From Rhodanobacter sp. PCA2 (lineage in GTDB: Bacteria > Pseudomonadota > Gammaproteobacteria > Xanthomonadales > Rhodanobacteraceae): a stretch of 64,000 nucleotides of DNA. A model generated the notes under the pieces. The model saw nothing but the letters and a program-made list of their open reading frames with translations, ran no database searches and was not told where the DNA came from. A program made the position numbers and the translations under genes. The stretch is from positions 51,060-115,059 of the forward strand of contig NZ_NJIC01000049.1 in assembly GCF_013620825.1 (NCBI RefSeq), in the 5' to 3' direction. Shown here in pieces: positions 14,013-63,828 of this stretch (within the stretch, counting starts at the first letter, position 1; each line of letters begins with the position of its first letter).

Positions 14013-15065
14013 CTACTCATCCTCATCCCCCGCCGTCAGATACCACTCCTTCCCGAATTCGGCCGGCGCCTGACCTTCACCCAGCCACTTGCCCACCACC
14101 GGCTGGCTGTCGCGGAGGACGAAGCCGGCGCGTCGCCAGCCGGCGAGGCGTTCGGGAGAGGTGGCGTGTTCCAGCGAGATCGAGGTGTGGCCGTCGCGGC
14201 TGGCGGCGCGGACCAGGGCCAGCACCAGCACGGCGTCGATGCCGGCGGCGCCCTGCTCGCACCAGTAGTCGCACACGCGCAGCACGCCGCCCACGGCCTG
14301 GCAGGCGAACCAGGCGCGCAGCGGGCCGTTCGCGCCGTCGGCGAGCAGCAGGTAGCGCGCGCCGGTGAACGGCGCCTCGTCGAAACGCCAGCGCAACATG
14401 GTGGCGTCGCGCACGCCCAGCAGCCCCTGTCCGTGCGGCGCGGTCTGCCACAGCGTTTCCATGCGCGAGTCGACCTGGGCGCACCAGGTGGCGACCATGC
14501 GCGGGGCGGCCAGCAGGCGCAGGCGGTCGCGCAGCGCGAACCCCGCGTCGATCGCGGCGCCCGCCGGCTGCGCCAGCCAGCGCGGCAGCTTGCGCTGCAG
14601 GTAGCCGGCGTGGCGCAGCACGCGGGAATGGCGCGACATCTCGCCCAGCACGGCATAGCCCAGGCGCTTCACCACCGGCAGCGACTTGCGGTTGGGGAAG
14701 CCGTAGACGAAGTCGAAGCGGCCCGCCGCGGCCGCCAGCAGCGACTCCTGCAGCATCATCGCCGGGCCCAGGGTGCGATGGCGCGCATCCACCGCCATGT
14801 CGGCGAGCAGGCCGGCGCGGAGTTCGCCGCCGTGCCACAGCATGCGCCGCGGCGCCACGCTGCAGCTGCCGACCACGGCGCCTTCGTGGCGCAGCAGCTG
14901 CAGCAGGGGCTTGCCGAACGGACCGCGCAGGTAGAACCAGTCGAGCTTGCCGGCGTGCCGGGCGGGATCGCCCAGGTTGTCGCGCCACAGCGCCAGCACC
15001 GCGTCGCGATCGCGCGGCAGTTCCGCGGTTTCCGTGCGATAGCCGGGCGCGGGGTCGCCGTTCAC
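14013..15065 (-). CDS. GNAT-like acyltransferase, last gene of the amidotransferase/ACP operon
   Basis: The 350-residue protein has a GNAT-like core: an early ALWRDNLG-type segment, LLRHEGAVVGSCSVAPRRM, then the cofactor-loop region LADMAVDARHRTLGPAMML near residues 85-105, and FVYGFPNRKSLPVVKRLGY. A C-terminal half may be a second, degenerate GNAT lobe. The substrate is unknown; an acyl-ACP or acyl-CoA donor and an amine acceptor are the family expectation. The GTG start at 15065 overlaps the TGA of the upstream nadE-like gene (GTGA), so translation is coupled. It belongs to the six-gene minus-strand operon that begins at 20701. Confidence 0.8.
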   Translation of the reverse strand: MNGDPAPGYRTETAELPRDRDAVLALWRDNLGDPARHAGKLDWFYLRGPFGKPLLQLLRHEGAVVGSCSVAPRRMLWHGGELRAGLLADMAVDARHRTLGPAMMLQESLLAAAAGRFDFVYGFPNRKSLPVVKRLGYAVLGEMSRHSRVLRHAGYLQRKLPRWLAQPAGAAIDAGFALRDRLRLLAAPRMVATWCAQVDSRMETLWQTAPHGQGLLGVRDATMLRWRFDEAPFTGARYLLLADGANGPLRAWFACQAVGGVLRVCDYWCEQGAAGIDAVLVLALVRAASRDGHTSISLEHATSPERLAGWRRAGFVLRDSQPVVGKWLGEGQAPAEFGKEWYLTAGDEDE

Positions 15066-16004
15066 GGCGGCGGCTCCGCGGCGACCTCCGCATCCAGCAG
15101 CAGCGGCGCCAGGTGCAGGTAGCGCGTGCTGCGCCGCTTGTTGCGGATGTCGGCATAGACCGCTTCGGCGGCTGCCTTCCAGCGCCCACAGCGCCAGGTC
15201 CATCTTCGCCCAGGGCAGCGCGAAGTAGAACTCGTCCTGGCCCTGGGCGAGGCTGTAGGTGTCGGTGGTGGGCGCGGCGGTAGCCACGCAGTCGGGCAGG
15301 CCCAGGTGTTTCGCCATGCCGTAGACCTGGGTCTTGTACAGGTGCGCGATGGGCTTGACGTCGGCGGAGCCGTCGCCGTTCTTCACGAAGAAGCCCTGGT
15401 CGTACTCCAGCCGGTTGGGCGTGCCCACCACGGCGTAGTTGAGGCGGTCGGCGTGGTAGTACTCCAGCGTCTTGCGCACACGCTGCTTGAAGTTGGTGGC
15501 GGCGACGATCTGCAGGTATTCGGGTAGCGGCAGGGTGCATTCGTGGCGCGTGCCGTCCGGCGATTCGGCGATCAGCCGGAAGTGGTTGATCGCGCCTTCG
15601 CTGCCGCCAGCGATCGCGATCTTCATGCGCCAGTCGTCGCGGTACTCGGGCAGCACGCGGCGCACCGCCTCGTCGCGCGCGGCGTAGCAGCCGATGGCGG
15701 CGAGCGTGGGCGCGATGTCCACGGTTTCCGCCCGCACGCCGAGGTGCTCGGCGAGGACCAGCGCGTTGCGCGCACTGGCGGAGGCCGAATCGCGCTCGGG
15801 CAGGATCAGCGCGAACACCCGCTGCGCGCCCACGGCCTGCACCGCGAGCGCGATGCACACCGAGCTGTCCACGCCGCCGGAAATCGCCACCACCAGGCCG
15901 CGCTTGTGCAGCTCGCGGGCGGTGGCCTCGCGCAGGCGCGCGGCGATGCGCGCGACCTCGGCGGCGTAGTCGAGGGCAAACACGTCCGGGGTCAGTGCGC
16001 TCAT
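15062..16004 (-). pseudogene. NadE-like ATP-dependent synthetase with internal deletion/frameshift
   Basis: The first 276 residues are a good ammonia-dependent NAD synthetase-type protein: PP-loop SGGVDSS at 42-48, LPERDSASASARNALVLAEHLG, YAVVGTPNRLEYDQGFFVKNGDG, DVKPIAHLYKTQVYGMAKHLG and FYFALPWAKMDLALWALE. At about 15176 the frame is lost. The expected C-terminus (AEAVYADIRNKRRSTRYLHL, then APLLLD) resumes in another frame and ends at 15062, overlapping the next gene. A segment usual between the two blocks is missing, so this is a deletion rather than a one-base slip, or an assembly collapse. AAGGAG precedes the ATG at 16004. In this operon the enzyme may activate a carboxylate other than deamido-NAD. 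Confidence 0.82.
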
Positions 16005-16020
16005 GTCCGTGGCTCCTTGC

Positions 16021-16908
16021 TCAGGCGCGGCGGGCGAGGATCGCCCGCAGGTCGCCGCGTTCGTCGACCAGCGCCCGCACCTCATCGTAGTGCGGATCGC
16101 GCAGCAGGCGCCGCTGCATCGCCGGGCCCTGGCCCAGCCCCACCTCGACGCCCAGCCAGCCGCCCGCGCGCAGCAGGCGCGGCGATTCTTCCAGCAGGCG
16201 CAGCAGGATGCTGACGCCCAGCGGGCCGCCGTCGAACGCGAGCCGCGGCTCGTGGTTGGAGATCTCCGCCGCCATCTGCGGCACCTTCGCGCTGAGGATG
16301 TACGGCGGCGAGCAGACCACCAGATCGACGGTGCCGTCGAACTCCGCGGCGAACGGCGCCAGCAGGTCGCCGCAGCGCAGCTGCACCTGCGCCAGGCCCA
16401 GGTGCCCGCGGTTGCGCGCGGCCAGCGCGAGCGCCTCGGCGCTGAGGTCGGCGCCATGCACTTCGGCGTCCGGCACGCGGTCGGCGATCGCGAACGCGAG
16501 GTTGCCGGAGCCGGTGCAGACGTCGACGACCCGTGCGGGGTGGCGCGCCTCCGCCGACTGCAGCAGCTCCACGCAGGCATGCGCCAGCAACTCGGTTTCC
16601 ACGCGGGGGATCAGGGCTTCGGGACCGGCGAGCAGTTCCAGGCCCATGAAGCAGCCGCGGCCGGTGAGATGGGCCAGCGGTTCGCCGGCAAGGCGGCGCT
16701 CCACCAGCTGCACGAGCGCGCGCCGCGCCGTCTCGTCGGCCAGCGGCGGCAGCGCACCCGCATTCGCGGCGACCGCCGAGCGCGGCTGGCCCACCGCGGC
16801 GAACCACAGCGCGCGCAAGGTGTTGTCGGCGTTCTCCCGGGGTTTGTCGGGCAGTATCCGCAACGTGGCGGCGAGGCGTTCGAGCAGGCTGTCGTACAAG
16901 GTATCCAT
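16021..16908 (-). CDS. PrmC/HemK-like class I methyltransferase with SPPY in place of NPPY
   Basis: The 295-residue protein has the PrmC architecture. An N-terminal helical domain ends in the family block RRLAGEPLAHLTGRGCFMGLEL and IPRVETELLAHA. A Rossmann SAM-binding domain follows (VVDVCTGSGNLAFAIADR). The catalytic tetrapeptide, NPPY in amide methyltransferases, is S200-P-P-Y in CSPPYIL. PrmC methylates the glutamine amide of release factors, with the Asn contacting the amide, so a different acceptor is likely. It starts 9 bases after the ligase stop and ends 16 bases before the nadE-like ATG. Housekeeping PrmC is expected elsewhere, normally beside prfA. Confidence 0.85.
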   Translation of the reverse strand: MDTLYDSLLERLAATLRILPDKPRENADNTLRALWFAAVGQPRSAVAANAGALPPLADETARRALVQLVERRLAGEPLAHLTGRGCFMGLELLAGPEALIPRVETELLAHACVELLQSAEARHPARVVDVCTGSGNLAFAIADRVPDAEVHGADLSAEALALAARNRGHLGLAQVQLRCGDLLAPFAAEFDGTVDLVVCSPPYILSAKVPQMAAEISNHEPRLAFDGGPLGVSILLRLLEESPRLLRAGGWLGVEVGLGQGPAMQRRLLRDPHYDEVRALVDERGDLRAILARRA

Positions 16909-16917
16909 CGCATTCCT

Positions 16918-18483
16918 TCAGGCCGGGGGATGTTCGAGCAGCGCCTTGCGGCTGACCTTGCCGGTGGCGGTGCGGGGCAGGTCCGCGCACGGCACGATCT
17001 GCTGCGGCACCATGAAGCTTTCCAGCCGCCGCATGCACTGCGCGCGGATCTGGCCGACGTCGAGCGCGGCACCCGGCTCCAGCACCACATAGGCGCGGAT
17101 CGCCTCGCCCAGCAGCTCGTCCGGCACGCCCACCACCACCGCCTCGCGGATGCCGTCGATGGCGTGCAGCACGTTCTCCACTTCCACCGGGCTCACCTTC
17201 TCGCCACGGGTCTTGATGATGTCGTCGCTGCGGCCCACGAAGTAGAGGAAGCCTTCCGCGTCCATGCGGAACCAGTCGTGCGTGCACAGCACGCGCTCGC
17301 CGGGCAGCGGTCCGGGCCGGAGCATCTGCGCGGAAAGATCGGGACGGTTCCAGTAACCGAGCATCACGTGCGGCCCGCGCACGTGCAGGATGCCGGATTC
17401 GCCCGGCGCCACCGGCTCGCCCGCGGGCGAGCGCAGGTAGACCTCGGTGCCGGGGATCGCCTTGCCCACCGAACCGGGTTTGGCTTCCAGCAGCTCGGGT
17501 TCCAGGTAGCACACGCGCTTGCATTCGGTGAGGCCGTACATCTTGTAGATGAGCGCGTTCGGGAAGATCTCGCGCAGCTTCAGCGCCTGCTCGTCGGGCA
17601 GCGCGGCGGCGGTGTTGGTGACGCGCGTGATGCCCGGGAAGCACAGCGGCTCGCGCCGGTGCGCGGACAGCAGCATCGCGAAGATGGTGGGCACGCCGGG
17701 GAACACGGTGACGTCGAACGCCTGCATGCGTGCGAACACCTGGGCGGGGAAGGCGAAGGAGCGCTCCAGCACCAGGGTGGCGCCGAGCTGCACCGTCATC
17801 AGCCACTGGTAAAGGCCGTAGTCGAAGGCCAGCGGCAGCGCGCACAGGATGCGTTCGTCCGGGCCGAGCCGCAGGTATTCGATCAGGCTGCCGGCCGCGA
17901 ACAGCATGGACTGGTGGGTCTGCATCACGCCCTTGGGCTGACCGGTGCTGCCCGAGGTGTAGATCAGCGCAGCGAGGTCGGTCGCGATCGCCGGAACGCG
18001 TTCGCGCAGCGGTTCGCCGGCGGCGAGCACGGCGTCGAACGCCTCGACGGCCAAGCCTGCGGGCAAGACGCCGGAAGCGATCACGCGCAGTGCGGGGCGG
18101 TCCGGCAGCAACGGCGCGAACTCCTGCGCGATGTGGCCGTCGCTGAGCAGCACGCGCGCGCCGCTGTCGTCGAGGATGAAGCCGAGCTTGTCCGACTTGG
18201 TCAGGGGATTGACGAGCAGGAACGCACCGCCTGCCAGCAGCACGGCGAAGATCGACACCACGCATGGCCAGGTGTTGTCCATGTAGATCGCCACGCGGTC
18301 GCCGCGTACCACGCCGCGCTGCCGCAACGCGCAGGCGAGGCGGCTCGCGGCGTCGAGCAGTTCGCCGTAGCTGTGCGGCCGGCCTTCCGCCACCACCGCG
18401 ATGCGCTGCGCCTGCACCAGGTCGGCGCCGTGTTCCAGCAGCGCGTCGTGCAGCAGGCGGCGTGGCGCGCAGCCGGTTTTCAC
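16918..18483 (-). CDS. AMP-forming acyl/aminoacyl ligase (adenylation enzyme)
   Basis: The 521-residue ANL-superfamily enzyme activates a carboxylate as acyl-AMP and can load it onto the carrier protein encoded just upstream. Motifs are complete: YTSGSTGQPKG (P-loop, about 190-200), MYGLTE, the DWFRMDAEGFLYFVGRSDDIIKTRGEKVSP hinge region (read in parts), and the C-terminal lysine in TATGKVSRKAL. The closest style by memory is the acyl-CoA ligase of exosortase-A/PEP-CTERM-associated clusters. The GTG start at 18483 overlaps the ACP stop (GTGA), so one-to-one coupling is likely. Confidence 0.9.
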   Translation of the reverse strand: MKTGCAPRRLLHDALLEHGADLVQAQRIAVVAEGRPHSYGELLDAASRLACALRQRGVVRGDRVAIYMDNTWPCVVSIFAVLLAGGAFLLVNPLTKSDKLGFILDDSGARVLLSDGHIAQEFAPLLPDRPALRVIASGVLPAGLAVEAFDAVLAAGEPLRERVPAIATDLAALIYTSGSTGQPKGVMQTHQSMLFAAGSLIEYLRLGPDERILCALPLAFDYGLYQWLMTVQLGATLVLERSFAFPAQVFARMQAFDVTVFPGVPTIFAMLLSAHRREPLCFPGITRVTNTAAALPDEQALKLREIFPNALIYKMYGLTECKRVCYLEPELLEAKPGSVGKAIPGTEVYLRSPAGEPVAPGESGILHVRGPHVMLGYWNRPDLSAQMLRPGPLPGERVLCTHDWFRMDAEGFLYFVGRSDDIIKTRGEKVSPVEVENVLHAIDGIREAVVVGVPDELLGEAIRAYVVLEPGAALDVGQIRAQCMRRLESFMVPQQIVPCADLPRTATGKVSRKALLEHPPA

Positions 18484-18746
18484 GCCGGGCTCCGCGCGCG
18501 CTCGACGAAGGCGGTGATCGCGTTCACCGAGTCGAAGTTCTGCGGCAGCATCTCGCTGGCCTTGACCTGCAGCCCGAAGTTCTCCTCCAGGAACAGCACC
18601 AGTTCCAGCACGCCGGTGGAGTCGATGATGCCGCGATCCAGCAGCGAGGCGTCGTCGGGCAAGTCGTTCGGGTCGCTGCTGAACAGCAGGTTCTCGAGGA
18701 TGTAGCTGCGGACGCTGCTGCGCACGCCGGTGGCGTCGTTGGACAT
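18480..18746 (-). CDS. Acyl carrier protein (phosphopantetheine carrier)
   Basis: An 88-residue carrier with the helix-II motif LLDRGIIDSTGVLELVLFLEENFG. S43 in the DS pair is the expected phosphopantetheine attachment site. It differs from the housekeeping AcpP DSLD motif, as in pathway-specific carriers. The ATG at 18746 has GGAG 7 bases upstream. An in-frame ATG at 18770 would overlap the asnB stop (ATGA) and add 8 residues. It lies between the amidotransferase and the AMP ligase, suggesting that the ligase loads it and the downstream enzymes act on the tethered group. Confidence 0.9.
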   Translation of the reverse strand: MSNDATGVRSSVRSYILENLLFSSDPNDLPDDASLLDRGIIDSTGVLELVLFLEENFGLQVKASEMLPQNFDSVNAITAFVERARSPA

Positions 18747-18766
18747 CGATGGCTCCGTTGCGGTTG

Positions 18767-20701
18767 TCATGCGGCGGCCTGCCGCACGAAGTGTTCGTGG
18801 ACCAGCATGGTGGAAAGGATGCCGACGAAGGCCTGGTTGTCGGCGAAGCCGATCGCGCGTCCGCGCCGGCATTTCTCGAACAGCCGGCCCACCGCGGGCG
18901 CGTCGAACCAGCCGGCGGCGCGAATGCGCGCCTCGCCCATCAGCTCGGCCACGTAGTCCAGCGGTTCGCCGTCGACGAAGAAGCTGGACTGGTCGGGCGC
19001 GCGGTAGGGCTGCTTGGTGCGCGTGCGGATGGCCTCGGGCAACAGCCCGTGCAGCGCGCGGCGCAGCAGGTACTTCTCGGTCATGCCGCGGATCTTCCAG
19101 TGCTCGGGCAGCGCGTTCGCGAACTCGATCACGCGGTGGTCCAGGAACGGGAAGCGTCCCTCCACCGAATGCGCCATCGCCGGGCGGTCGCCCTGCGCCG
19201 GCAGCAGGTAGGCCGCCAGCAGGCTCTTGGCCTCGACGTACTGGTCGCGCGCCAGCGGGCCCCAGCGGCGGGTCGCCGGCGGCAGGCGTTCCTCGTACCA
19301 GTCCAGCGCGTTCCAGTCGGCGAGGCCGGCGCGCAGCTCGGGCGCGAGGAAGCGCAGCGCGTGCTGCGAACTGGTCCAGCGCGGCACGTGCGCGAACACC
19401 GGCCGCGCCAGGTGCTCCATGCCGCGGCCGAAGAAGGATTGCGCCAGCGCCGCGTGCTGCACCGGCGAGTTCTCCAGATAGCCGTACAGGCGCCCGAGCA
19501 GGGCGGGCCGGAAGCGCGAACCGGGCTGGCGCGCCCAGAAGCGGCGCACCTTGGCCTCCTTGAACAAGTCGTAGCCGCCGAACACCTCGTCGGCGCCCTC
19601 GCCGGTGAGCACCACCTTGTAGCCCGCCTCCCGCACCTGCCGCGCCAGCAGCATCAGCGGCGCGCCGGCGGTGCGCAGCACCGGCGTCTCGACCTGGCGC
19701 ACGAAGGCGGGGAACGCCTCGCCGATCGCGCGGCGGCTGCAACGCAGCACGGTGTGGTCGGTGCCCAGGTGGCGCACCATCGCGGCCTGCTCCGCGCTCT
19801 CGTCGAACTCGGCCTCGTCGAACGCGATGGAGAAGGTGCGCACGTTGCGCTGGCCCAGCGCGCACATCAGCGCCACCGTGGCCGAGGAATCCAGCCCGCC
19901 GCTGAGGTAGGCGCCCAGCGGCACGTCGGCCTGCAGGCGCAGGCGCACCGCATCGGACAGCAGTTCGCGCAGCTCCTCCGCGGCCTGCTCCACCGAGGTC
20001 CGGCGCGGCGCGCCGGGCTCGGGAAAGCTCCAGTCCCAGTAGCAGGCCAGCGACTCGCAGCCGTCGTCCTCCACCGCCAGCAGGTGCCCCGGCGGCAGGC
20101 TTTCGATGCCCGCGAACACGCTGCCGGGTTCGACCGGGCCCCAGTAGGTCAGCGTCTGCGCGAGGCTGGCGGGGTCGAGCTGCGCGTGCCCGGGCAAGGC
20201 CGCCAGCAGCGCCTTGATCTCCGAGCCGAACCACAGCCGCCCCGCGACGCGCGCGAGGAACAGCGGCCGCACGCCGCAGCGGTCGCGCGCCAGCAGCAGG
20301 CGACGCCGCGCGGCGTCCCACAGCGCGATCGCGAAATCGCCGTTGAGGTGTTCCACGAAGCGGTCGCCGTGCTCCTCGTACAGGTGCACGATGACTTCGG
20401 TGTCCGACTGCGTGGCGAAGCGGTGGCCGCGCCGCTCCAGCTCCGTGCGCAGCGTGCGGTAGTTGAAGATCTCGCCGTTGAACACCGTCCACACGTCGCC
20501 GCGCTCGTTGGCGATCGGCTGCGCGCCGGTGGCGAGGTCGATCACCGCCAGCCGCGCATGCGCGAGCCCGGCGCCGCCGTCGACGTGGAAGCCGTAGCCG
20601 TCGGGGCCGCGGTGGTGCAGGGTGCGGATCATCCGCTCCAGCGTGCGGCGCGCCGTGTCGGGCGCGTCCGGGGTACCGAAGAAGCCGGCAATCCCGCACA
20701 T
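18767..20701 (-). CDS. asnB: Asparagine-synthase-like glutamine amidotransferase
   Basis: The 644-residue protein has an N-terminal class II glutaminase domain starting at MCGIAGFFG, so Cys2 is the nucleophile, with HRGPDGYGFHVD and FNGEIFNYR. The C-terminal synthetase domain has the PP-loop SGGLDSSATVAL near residue 265 and the GEGADEVFGGYD motif. It transfers ammonia from glutamine to an AMP-activated carboxylate. In an operon with a carrier protein and AMP ligase it is more likely a pathway-specific amide former than housekeeping asparagine synthetase, as in exosortase-associated amidotransferases. The start is fixed by the catalytic Cys; the ribosome site is weak. First gene of the operon. 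Confidence 0.92.
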   Translation of the reverse strand: MCGIAGFFGTPDAPDTARRTLERMIRTLHHRGPDGYGFHVDGGAGLAHARLAVIDLATGAQPIANERGDVWTVFNGEIFNYRTLRTELERRGHRFATQSDTEVIVHLYEEHGDRFVEHLNGDFAIALWDAARRRLLLARDRCGVRPLFLARVAGRLWFGSEIKALLAALPGHAQLDPASLAQTLTYWGPVEPGSVFAGIESLPPGHLLAVEDDGCESLACYWDWSFPEPGAPRRTSVEQAAEELRELLSDAVRLRLQADVPLGAYLSGGLDSSATVALMCALGQRNVRTFSIAFDEAEFDESAEQAAMVRHLGTDHTVLRCSRRAIGEAFPAFVRQVETPVLRTAGAPLMLLARQVREAGYKVVLTGEGADEVFGGYDLFKEAKVRRFWARQPGSRFRPALLGRLYGYLENSPVQHAALAQSFFGRGMEHLARPVFAHVPRWTSSQHALRFLAPELRAGLADWNALDWYEERLPPATRRWGPLARDQYVEAKSLLAAYLLPAQGDRPAMAHSVEGRFPFLDHRVIEFANALPEHWKIRGMTEKYLLRRALHGLLPEAIRTRTKQPYRAPDQSSFFVDGEPLDYVAELMGEARIRAAGWFDAPAVGRLFEKCRRGRAIGFADNQAFVGILSTMLVHEHFVRQAAA

Positions 20702-21102
20702 CGCCGCGGCCGGGTCAGCAGCGCAGGCCGGGCAAGGCGCCGGCATGCGTGGGCGGTGGATACGGCGGCCCCGTGCGCCTGGCCCGGGGGCCGCGCAGCA
20801 CGGCGCCGGGCCGCTGGTCCCGATCCGTGCGCCGGTCTATGCAGTCCGTCTCGCGGTCCACCGCATCCTCCCCCATATCCCCAGGCCAGCTCCTCTGGCG
20901 CGGCGGCCTTGCGCAGTATATAAGGACCGCATGATGTTGTGACTCAGTTCGCACTTCGGCATCAAGCATGACCTTCGGCACAGGCGTGATCGCATACGGA
21001 CCGCGGTCGCGCAAGCCCAGGGGATGGGGAGCGTCAGCAGCGCCCACCGGAGGCCACCGCCACCCGGATGGCCCGCCGCTGCGCCGCGGAGGGTACGGGG
21101 GG
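20702..21102. other. Divergent intergenic region between amidotransferase operon and deacetylase
   Basis: About 400 bases without a supported gene separate the asnB-like start from the deacetylase leader. Most is GC-rich and featureless by eye. One AT-rich island (20915-20923) stands out and is listed as a promoter candidate. Open frames crossing it are shadows without family sequence. Confidence 0.6.
20911..20926. promoter_or_regulatory. AT-rich promoter-like island
   Basis: The sequence AGTATATAAGG stands in otherwise very GC-rich DNA. Read on the plus strand it gives TATATA, on the minus strand TATACT; both resemble a -10 box. The matching -35 regions are weak. It lies roughly 200 bases from the asnB-like start and 260 from the deacetylase, so either or both divergent units may start here. 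Confidence 0.35.
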
Positions 21103-21189
21103 ATGAACGGCACCGACATTTTCAGGGATGCGCCCAGGGGTGGCCCGCGGCGCGTGCCGACGCGTGGGCGGAGTTCGTCCCCGTGGTGA
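21103..21189 (+). CDS. Possible 28-residue leader peptide coupled to the deacetylase
   Basis: GGGGGG immediately precedes an ATG that opens a short frame, MNGTDIFRDAPRGGPRRVPT and 8 more residues. Its TGA (21187-21189) overlaps the GTG proposed as the deacetylase start at 21186 in a GTGA arrangement. The overlap and ribosome site are suggestive, but the peptide has no recognised relatives and the frame may be chance. Confidence 0.25.
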   Translation: MNGTDIFRDAPRGGPRRVPTRGRSSSPW

Positions 21190-22262
21190 GCCGGTCGGAA
21201 TGGAATGAACTCCACCCCGGCATGCGCGTGCGCCTGGGCGGCCTGTGCCAGCGCAGCGGACTGCTGCGCCTGCTGCACCGCACGCGCGGCTGGGTGCGCC
21301 GCGACCTGCGCGTGCTGGCCTACCACCGCGTGCTGAGCGTGGCCGACCCGGACCGCTTCGATTTCGACCTGGACCTGGTCAGCACATCGGTGGACGGATT
21401 CCGCCGCCAGATGCAGTTGCTCGGGCGCCGCTTCCACCCCATGTCGCTGGGCCAGGTGGTGGCGGCGCTGGAGGCGGGCCAGCAGCTGCCGGCCCAGGCC
21501 GTGGTGGTGACCTTCGACGACGGCTACGACGACAACCACCGGTTCGCCTTCCCCATCCTGCGCGAGCTGGGCATACCGGCCACGTTCTTCGTGTCCACCG
21601 GCCACATCGACAGCGGCCTGCCCTATGCCTACGACTGGCTGGTGCACATGATCCTGTGCACGCAGGCGCGCGAACTGGCGATCCCCGCGCTGGGCCTGGC
21701 GGAACCGCTGCCGATCGAGCGCCGGGCGCGTCGCCTGCTGGCGCAACGGGTGCTGGATCGCCTGAAGGCGCTGGACGTCGCGGCCCAGGAAGCCTGCATC
21801 GCGCGGCTGGAAGCCGCCTGGGGGATGCCACGCGTCGCCGGCCATCCGGATTGCCGGCCGATGGGCTGGGCGCAGTTGCGCGAGATGCACGCGGCCGGCT
21901 TCGAGATCGGCTCGCACGGCGTGCACCACCGCATGCTGGCGAAGCTGCCGCGCGAGGAACTGGAGGCGGAGCTGCGCGAATCCAGGACCGCGCTGGAACG
22001 CGAGCTGGGCACGCCGGCCACGACGATCTCCTACCCGGTGGGCGGCGTGGGCGCGTTCGACGACGAGGTGGTGCGCGCGACGCGCGATGCCGGCTACCAG
22101 GCGGCGTGCAGCTACATCTGCGGCACCAACCCGCTGCGCGCGATCAACCGCTACGCGCTGTACCGGCTGCCGGTCGAACGCCACATGGACGCGAACTGGT
22201 TCACCGCCATGCTGACCCTGCCGGAACTGGTGGGCTACCCGTCCTCGAACCGGGAAGGCTGA
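21186..22262 (+). CDS. Polysaccharide deacetylase (NodB-type, CE4)
   Basis: A metal-dependent deacetylase of N-acetylated sugars, about 358 residues. It has LRVLAYHRVL, the Asp-Asp of VVVTFDDGYDDNH, the histidine pair in GSHGVHHRML, the catalytic-arm segment ISYPVGGVGAF and a C-terminal YALYRLPVERH. No clear signal peptide is visible; the upstream in-frame extension to 21024 is Pro/Arg-rich and unconvincing. GTG at 21186 has a GGAG about 14 bases upstream; ATG at 21222 is an alternative. It is divergent from the amidotransferase/ACP operon, and deacetylases of this kind often accompany exopolysaccharide or PEP-CTERM-linked clusters. Confidence 0.85.
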   Translation: MSRSEWNELHPGMRVRLGGLCQRSGLLRLLHRTRGWVRRDLRVLAYHRVLSVADPDRFDFDLDLVSTSVDGFRRQMQLLGRRFHPMSLGQVVAALEAGQQLPAQAVVVTFDDGYDDNHRFAFPILRELGIPATFFVSTGHIDSGLPYAYDWLVHMILCTQARELAIPALGLAEPLPIERRARRLLAQRVLDRLKALDVAAQEACIARLEAAWGMPRVAGHPDCRPMGWAQLREMHAAGFEIGSHGVHHRMLAKLPREELEAELRESRTALERELGTPATTISYPVGGVGAFDDEVVRATRDAGYQAACSYICGTNPLRAINRYALYRLPVERHMDANWFTAMLTLPELVGYPSSNREG

Positions 22263-63596: not shown

Positions 63597-63828
63597 GACG
63601 CCACCTCCAGGGTTTTCCGTTTGCAGGAGGGAATGCATGGGCCATGCCAGAGTGTGATATACATCACACGTCCATTCCGGCGGCTCGCCGAAACTGACAC
63701 GGTGCGTCAGCTGCTGCCATGGATCGGCAGAAAGTTCCGTTTCAGTCACCGCATGTTCACACACAGGCGGCGAATATCGCCCCACGGTCTGGTCGGAAAA
63801 CGGTCAGGCTCGCCAGATTTCACGGTTT

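Follow-up and report, generated by a model that had tools for sequence, protein, structure and literature searches.

A conserved carrier-protein cassette of Rhodanobacter sp. PCA2 contains a NadE-like paralog and may prepare an amidated acyl or aminoacyl group

What is made by an operon in which a gene of the NAD synthase family stands among genes for acid activation, amidation, methylation and acyl transfer? This question is raised by a locus of Rhodanobacter sp. PCA2, which lies in a stretch of 64,000 nucleotides (contig NZ_NJIC01000049.1, positions 51,060 to 115,059; hereafter, the window). By profile searches and from the translations of the window, six genes were found in sequence on its minus strand from 20746 to 14013, coding for an AsnB-type amidotransferase, an acyl/aminoacyl carrier protein (ACP), an AMP-forming ligase (ANL), a PrmC-like methyltransferase, a NadE-like N-type ATP-pyrophosphatase and a GNAT-type acyltransferase (Table 1). 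The gene of a CE4 polysaccharide deacetylase is on the opposite strand, divergent from the operon. A preliminary description of this DNA, made from the letters alone, had named these six families on one strand, tightly spaced and divergent from the deacetylase, and each family assignment was confirmed. AsnB overlaps ACP by 4 nt (18767-18770), ACP overlaps ANL by 4 nt (18480-18483), and the spacers are 9 nt between ANL and PrmC and 16 nt between PrmC and NadE. Our panel of operon queries gave no further match in the rest of the window (about 55 kb, E up to 1e-4), and the grouping is therefore beyond chance.

In the family, 25 of 197 genomes (that of strain PCA2 included) have the full-length NadE-like gene, and a GNAT gene adjoins it in all 25. 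In even samples of wider groups, at E<=1e-60, the gene was also found in 15 of 398 genomes of the phylum, in 24 of 347 genomes of a second order, and in 18 of 369 genomes of the class, one of the 18 being partial. It also occurs on 116 plasmid records, 76 of which belong to Sinorhizobium. After removal of copies, 138 distinct loci were obtained, and 95 of them were flanked by 7 kb or more on either side. Up to 9.5 kb away, an ACP gene was present at all 95 loci, AsnB at 90, ANL at 89, and all three at 85; a GNAT- or FemAB-type acyltransferase was present at 61, CE4 at 34 and PrmC at 29. When the 42 evenly sampled loci were counted alone (two of them repeat contig loci), the numbers within 8 kb were 42 for ACP, 39 for AsnB and 39 for ANL. 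The contig loci L057, L058, L059, L061, L065, L067 and L072, which repeat family loci, were left out of the counts, as were L056 (a near copy of L054) and L179 and L180 (copies of L079 and L090). The 42-locus, 96-locus and 134-ligase counts and the wider-set tree were made before L179 and L180 were removed, and the 134-ligase set includes two copies. L055 was excluded only from the clustering of open reading frames, and the partial match G1022, which is interrupted by a stop, was not included. The preliminary description had made its claim of novelty depend on whether these genes stay together in relatives; the neighbourhood search found genes of the six families together there. The cassette is a conserved one that combines known enzyme families, and no description of the gene set was found in the open-access literature searched. 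As a separate observation, a minCDE operon lies less than 2 kb from the cassette on plasmids of Rhizobium sp. (L055) and Sinorhizobium medicae (L056).

The NadE-like protein exceeded the cut-offs of both NF002048 and TIGR00552 and has the SGGVDS motif. The same genome contains, elsewhere, a separate glutamine-dependent NadE (747.6 bits, above cut-off) and a separate housekeeping PrmC (305 bits, above cut-off), whereas the PrmC-like protein of the operon narrowly missed the TIGR03534 cut-off. Because the housekeeping copies sit elsewhere, the NadE-like and PrmC-like genes of the operon are paralogs. In the alignment with housekeeping NadE, the NadE-like protein retained SGGxDS, but it had an insert of about 50 residues, modelled with three strands, and its GNKSE/GDMCGAY region was rewritten. 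We think that this gene, annotated as one for an NAD-making enzyme, probably does not code for an NAD synthase. Among the matches listed, the most similar proteins in named records were those of Frateuria (87% identity), Rhodanobacter (85%) and Dyella (75%). Viral contigs were searched with the NadE-like protein too; 15 patterns matched, but no relative was confirmed among them. The housekeeping NadE itself showed an in-frame stretch of the GIRDWGFGIR...IPNPQSPIP type (L137 1447-3189, C1 of the same genome; L026, L027, L028), which makes it about 20 aa longer than that of L030. This stretch was present in four of six family members (L029 gave no pattern match, and L030 was without it), and it resembles a dispersed repeat of the DNA that is translated in frame.

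The AsnB reading frame is open from 20746, but a start at 20701 (MCGIAGF) puts the Cys right after the Met and is most likely the true one. In an alignment of 82 AsnB proteins, this Cys was found in 77 (gap in 5) and SGGLDS in 79 (gap in 3); the ACP serine was kept in 94 of 94. For the ligase, VinN (3wvn) was the best stand-alone enzyme in the PDB (243.7 bits) and the top match for the half that contains the pocket, although the gramicidin synthase LgrA outranked it when several stretches were summed. VinN loads (2S,3S)-3-methylaspartate, as a beta-amino acid, onto a stand-alone ACP (PMC11253843; PMC11284099). Its key residues are D230, F231, S299, K330 and R331, and one of its loops is shortened (PMC11253843). 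The substrate of FlvN is Asp (PMC11284099). The chain numbers of 3wvn matched the published residues with a single constant offset of 16, and the five VinN residues aligned, in order, with D221, Y222, T291, K322 and R323 of the ligase. The ligase thus has the Asp, the bulky neighbour, the polar residue at the S299 position, the Lys-Arg pair and the short beta13-beta14 loop of a VinN-type pocket, and the TE-to-R spacing is two residues, the same as in VinN. An earlier reading of the ligase as an alpha-amino-acid enzyme, based on the Asp235 rule alone, was dropped after the 3wvn alignment favoured the VinN-like reading.

R323 was present in all 134 cassette ligases. D221 was present in 54 of them, all with T291, and the other 80 had S, A, G, T or N at 221, all with A291. 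We read these as two substrate classes: probably an amino-dicarboxylate in the first case and, in the second, a dicarboxylate or comparable acid that lacks this amine. Because the Arg is invariant, a free second carboxylate on the substrate is suggested, which would be a natural target of AsnB, and aspartate is our best single guess for the ligases with Asp at 221 (D-type). The PrmC-like gene followed this division: it lay within the fetched stretch at 40 of 53 D-type loci and at none of 78 other loci. In a genome-wide search, in which matches of at least 239 bits were called PrmC-like and housekeeping copies gave 191 bits at most, it was found anywhere in 0 of 14 non-D genomes. On the NadE tree, the D221 and PrmC-like traits never shifted in opposite directions. 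Among the ligase neighbourhoods, a Ser-type and an Asp-type ligase of the cassette kind occur together at L183. The Luteimonas loci L080, L083 and L084 have AsnB, ACP, PrmC-like, NadE-like and GNAT genes, and no ligase was found nearby. At L062, L066, L071 and similar Pseudoxanthomonas/Luteimonas loci, a PF07995 glucose/sorbosone dehydrogenase-type gene lies on the opposite strand between AsnB and ACP.

We consider it an evenly balanced proposition that the cassette makes an acyl or aminoacyl group on its dedicated carrier and then hands this group to an amine. For the substrate, the order of the steps and the acceptor, we infer the following. The ligase would adenylate an aspartate-like amino-dicarboxylate in the manner of VinN, probably through the side-chain carboxylate, and load it onto ACP, so that a carboxylate and the amine stay free. 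AsnB, judged from its family and intact motifs, would then convert the free carboxylate to an amide with ammonia from glutamine. The PrmC-like enzyme, which occurs only with Asp-type ligases in our sample, may methylate the product at the amide nitrogen or at a carboxylate. The preliminary description had assigned it to the amide; the evidence does not support this as worded, and amide methylation stands as one among its possible roles. The NadE-like protein may be a second adenylating, amide-forming enzyme in this pathway, whose target would be the carrier-bound acid or a nucleotide-linked uronic acid. Finally, GNAT would move the group to an amine, most likely that of a cytoplasmic sugar precursor deacetylated by CE4, to give a decorated surface glycan. 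Of the product classes, a carrier-bound amidated acid has the best support, and it has about as much chance of being right as of being wrong. The ACP serine, the AsnB Cys and P-loop, the VinN-like pocket and the gene conservation all support the earlier proposal of a small molecule that is bound to a carrier, amidated and perhaps methylated.

Several points weigh against this proposal. A VinN-like pocket is no proof of an aspartate substrate, and the NadE-like gene of the window itself is damaged. ANL was not near 6 of the 95 loci and AsnB was not near 5. Since CE4 was near just 34 of the 95, and since 34 had none of the searched acyltransferase types nearby, acceptor and transferase are not universal. 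NadE-like cassette members served as bait for all loci, and those on contigs are the best 80 of 573, so that distant members may differ. The tie between D-type ligase and PrmC-like gene is also less than complete. It is one-way, because 13 of the 53 D-type loci in the wider sample had no PrmC-like gene in the fetched stretch; the strict coupling suggested by an early count (24/24 vs 0/56) was undone by these loci. Of 12 D-type genomes without the gene nearby, three had it elsewhere and nine had none. Only four independent trait pairs could be drawn on supported branches. All four agreed in the first set (p 0.125, not significant); in the wider set a mean of 2.5 of four agreed and the rest showed no difference (median p 0.5), and with pairs chosen to differ in D, 3.2 of four agreed (p 0.25).

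The NadE-like gene is not intact, which corrects the preliminary description. Past codon ~277, it is 47 nt shorter than six aligned relatives, and in a family-wide DNA search G147, G188, G058, G045, G004, G082 and G087, among others, each had 47 more bases at the same point. The DNA of G147 was 98% identical to that of the window ahead of the gap and 83% beyond it. The NadE-like frame now meets no stop and continues into the GNAT gene, from 16004 to 14013 (663 aa). The former C-terminus, AEAVYADIRNKRRSTRYLHLAPLLLDAEVAAEPPP, is out of frame, and its stop at 15062 overlaps the GNAT GTG at 15065. In the predicted fold of a relative (L057, pLDDT 85.6), the last two helices are those shifted out of frame. 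Because the genome is a draft of 62 contigs, a true deletion and an assembly fault are both possible. We think that the NadE-like step is probably impaired by the deletion in this strain.

This raises the question of whether the operon is decaying in strain PCA2 and makes nothing, so that our finding concerns a relic. The loss of the last two helices from the frame speaks for it, but the other five frames are open, the NadE frame is open into GNAT, and the draft may be wrong at this point; we regard a relic as doubtful, though it deserves attention. A different objection is that the genes are grouped by chance or for housekeeping, NadE serving NAD+, PrmC the release factors and AsnB asparagine. 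The public plasmid annotation, in which the NadE-like gene is labelled nadE, NAD(+) synthase, and the AsnB gene asnB, agrees with this idea, as do the NadE profile scores. In view of the separate genomic copies, we reject housekeeping roles for the operon NadE and PrmC. In addition, an ACP gene accompanies every locus counted, the substrate-site regions of the NadE-like protein are unlike those of the housekeeping enzyme, and the first residue of the xPPY motif is N in just 8 of 18 aligned PrmC-like proteins (the others have S, A, L or I). We hold such a grouping to be very improbable.

The role of the product must be considered as well. The preliminary description had suggested a substituent on an extracellular polysaccharide, which is plausible from the CE4 neighbours and from some cassettes in exopolysaccharide (EPS) or exosortase A (XrtA) loci. 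An Azospirillum cassette occurs with an EPS gene set containing sugar transferase, O-antigen ligase, glycosyltransferase, CE4 and GNAT genes, a Shinella cassette adjoins exopolysaccharide transport and glycosyltransferase genes, and sugar-related genes of the searched types were near 46 of 96 loci. The product may instead be a soluble secondary metabolite or the head group of an amino-lipid, with the deacetylase and sugar genes incidental. VinN, FlvN and ligase/ACP pairs like theirs work in antibiotic pathways; about half of the loci had no sugar-related gene of the searched types nearby; and in two rhizobial plasmid cassettes sugar-transport genes and minCDE adjoin and no polysaccharide cluster is in view, with the caveat that the second plasmid has one gene named for lipopolysaccharide biosynthesis about 11 kb off. 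By contrast, Pfam searches of 20 representatives of neighbour families found no polyketide synthase or nonribosomal peptide synthetase module and one KAS-III-like protein, and deacetylase genes of three kinds, as well as EPS or XrtA genes, recur around the cassettes. We judge a soluble or lipid product unlikely. The accessible part of the OlsH/OlsI-related literature (PMC12493201) deals with other enzymes. Still less probable, in our opinion, is that the operon is the known XrtA/PEP-CTERM accessory set from which this strain has lost the sortase. XrtA markers do stand beside cassettes, namely a TIGR03006 deacetylase (414.5 bits, L090) and a TIGR03019 FemAB protein (402.3 bits, L093), both above cut-off. 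By tblastn, 15 of 96 loci had a homologue of one or both of these markers nearby, and the other 81 had neither. The remark that no sortase is present in the window holds for the whole genome: TIGR02602 gave 0 matches there, and in the family 0 of 24 genomes with the cassette had an exosortase, compared with 1 of 24 that lack it. AsnB scored 439 bits with TIGR03108 (cut-off 817) and the ligase 413 bits with TIGR03098 (cut-off 592), and the XrtA-located relatives were also below these cut-offs (AsnB of L090, L093 and L184; ANL of L090 and L093). Taken strictly, the operon is thus no exosortase accessory set. It resembles part of the exosortase-A accessory clusters, as had been proposed, and the scores do not make it identical to them.

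A broader view can be taken, which we put forward tentatively and think somewhat unlikely as a whole: the NF002048 family, annotated as NAD(+) synthase, may have no such activity and may instead mark a widespread carrier-protein pathway for the amidation of dicarboxylic acids on ACP, destined for surface glycans, with two chemotypes. These would be an aspartate type, with an Asp221 ligase and often the methyltransferase, and a non-amino type, with Ser, Ala or Gly in the ligase. Where the cassette lies in an XrtA locus, the product may be an amine-bearing group that receives proteins from exosortases. If this is true, the annotation of an NAD(+) synthase family should be corrected and a repurposed NadE joins the amide-making enzymes. 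It would also predict an amidated, sometimes methylated aspartate-like group on the polysaccharides of many Pseudomonadota, and would supply a candidate exosortase acceptor in relatives with the cassette inside an XrtA locus.

The coordinates of the features are listed in Table 1.

Table 1. Features of the operon and its divergent neighbour in the window
Feature	Position	Strand	Evidence
CE4 polysaccharide deacetylase, divergent	21024..22262	+	PF01522, 92.6 bits
AsnB-type glutamine amidotransferase/synthetase (asparagine-synthase family)	18767..20701	-	TIGR01536, 488 bits (cut-off 267)
Acyl/aminoacyl carrier protein (ACP), Ser in IIDSTG	18480..18770	-	PP-binding and ACP models, below cut-offs
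AMP-forming ligase (ANL), VinN-like pocket D221, Y222, T291, K322, R323	16918..18483	-	PF00501, 294.7 bits
PrmC/HemK-like S-adenosylmethionine methyltransferase paralog, SPPY replacing NPPY	16021..16908	-	TIGR03534, 194.8 bits (cut-off 199.1)
NadE-like N-type ATP-pyrophosphatase (NF002048 / PRK00876), intact part	15174..16004	-	NF002048, 412 bits (cut-off 313)
Out-of-frame remnant of NadE-like C-terminus, after 47-nt deletion	15062..15178	-	Alignment with relatives
GNAT-type acyltransferase, GTG start overlapping old NadE stop, now in frame with NadE-like	14013..15065	-	Acetyltransf_9, predicted structure

Acetyltransf_9 was matched in 20 of 25 aligned GNAT members at E<=0.1, and a PDB search with the GNAT profile found no relative. 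The AlphaFold model of GNAT (pLDDT 93.2) has a secondary structure that we read as two GNAT-like units, an arrangement which may be like that of FemX or VimA. The true start of CE4 is probably at about 21180-21220, because its alignment with same-genus relatives begins only at residue 52 or 66; no signal peptide was evident by eye. A divergent CE4 homologue was present at three of the four other carriers in the genus (L031, L033 and L035; not L034). At L085, L086, L095, L100, L104, L111, L116, L125 and L132, a KAS-III-like gene is near the cassette, in six cases with another GNAT, which may be a sign that the unit on the carrier undergoes chain extension.

Clp governs EPS genes in related bacteria. 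The intergenic region of AsnB and CE4 contains a CRP/Clp-like palindrome, TGTGACTCAGTTCGCA, at 20938..20953, with one mismatch to TGTGA-N6-TCACA, and a -35/-10-like pair at 20943-20915 (minus strand) lies in this divergent promoter region. The same intergenic region of L031 has a site with one mismatch, that of L033 has identical letters, and that of L035 a site with two mismatches. The pattern occurs twice in the 64-kb window against 0.77 expected, and 16 of 100 shuffles equalled that number, so a CRP/Clp-like site in the operon promoter region is only weakly indicated by these letters. A perfect palindrome of the CRP/Clp type, TGTGATATACATCACA, was seen close to the window end, at 63653-63668. 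The flanking genes are ordinary: a glyoxalase-like gene and ilvD on one side, ubiA and a TonB receptor gene on the other (ilvD, ubiA and the receptor read from the translations). An Rfam scan of the whole window gave no match, and PHROGs matched solely NAD-synthetase, glutamine-amidotransferase and unnamed families.

How, then, does the cassette compare with known systems? With NAD(+) synthase NadE, the NadE-like protein has in common the SGGxDS ATP-pyrophosphatase motif and the family profile, and it differs in the insert, the altered substrate region and the constant company of an ACP gene. In D-alanyl transfer by DltA/DltC, an adenylating ligase and a small carrier decorate a cell-surface polymer. 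The ligase and small carrier are alike in the two systems, DltC being a weak match of the cassette ACP, whereas the cassette has extra amidating enzymes. The XrtA/PEP-CTERM set (TIGR03098, TIGR03108, TIGR03006, TIGR03019) has AsnB, ANL, deacetylase and acyltransferase functions in common with the cassette; the cassette adds the NadE-like and PrmC-like proteins, its AsnB and ANL stay below the cut-offs, and its genome is without an exosortase. The macrolactam pathways of VinN/VinL and FlvN resemble it in the stand-alone ligase with ACP and in the corresponding pocket residues. There the substrate is (methyl)aspartate and the second carboxylate is removed by the pyridoxal phosphate-dependent decarboxylase VinO; the operon has no decarboxylase gene and has AsnB and the NadE-like gene instead. 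A marine O-antigen contains a malyl-amino-glucuronamide, a sugar both malyl-acylated and uronamide (PMC3210612), which shows by analogy that such chemistry is natural, with no link to this cassette implied. The best functional analogue is the Wbp/Vim linking-sugar pathway of Porphyromonas gingivalis, with which it shares a CE4 enzyme, an acetyltransferase-like enzyme and an AsnB amidotransferase. In the accessible part of its description (PMC7468200), ACP, an adenylating ligase, and NadE-like and PrmC-like proteins, all present in the cassette, are not named; the CE4 enzyme VimE is proposed to free an amine, the N-acyltransferase VimA to add Ser or Gly, and WbpS (AsnB) makes the uronamide, so that the product is an aminoacylated uronamide sugar.

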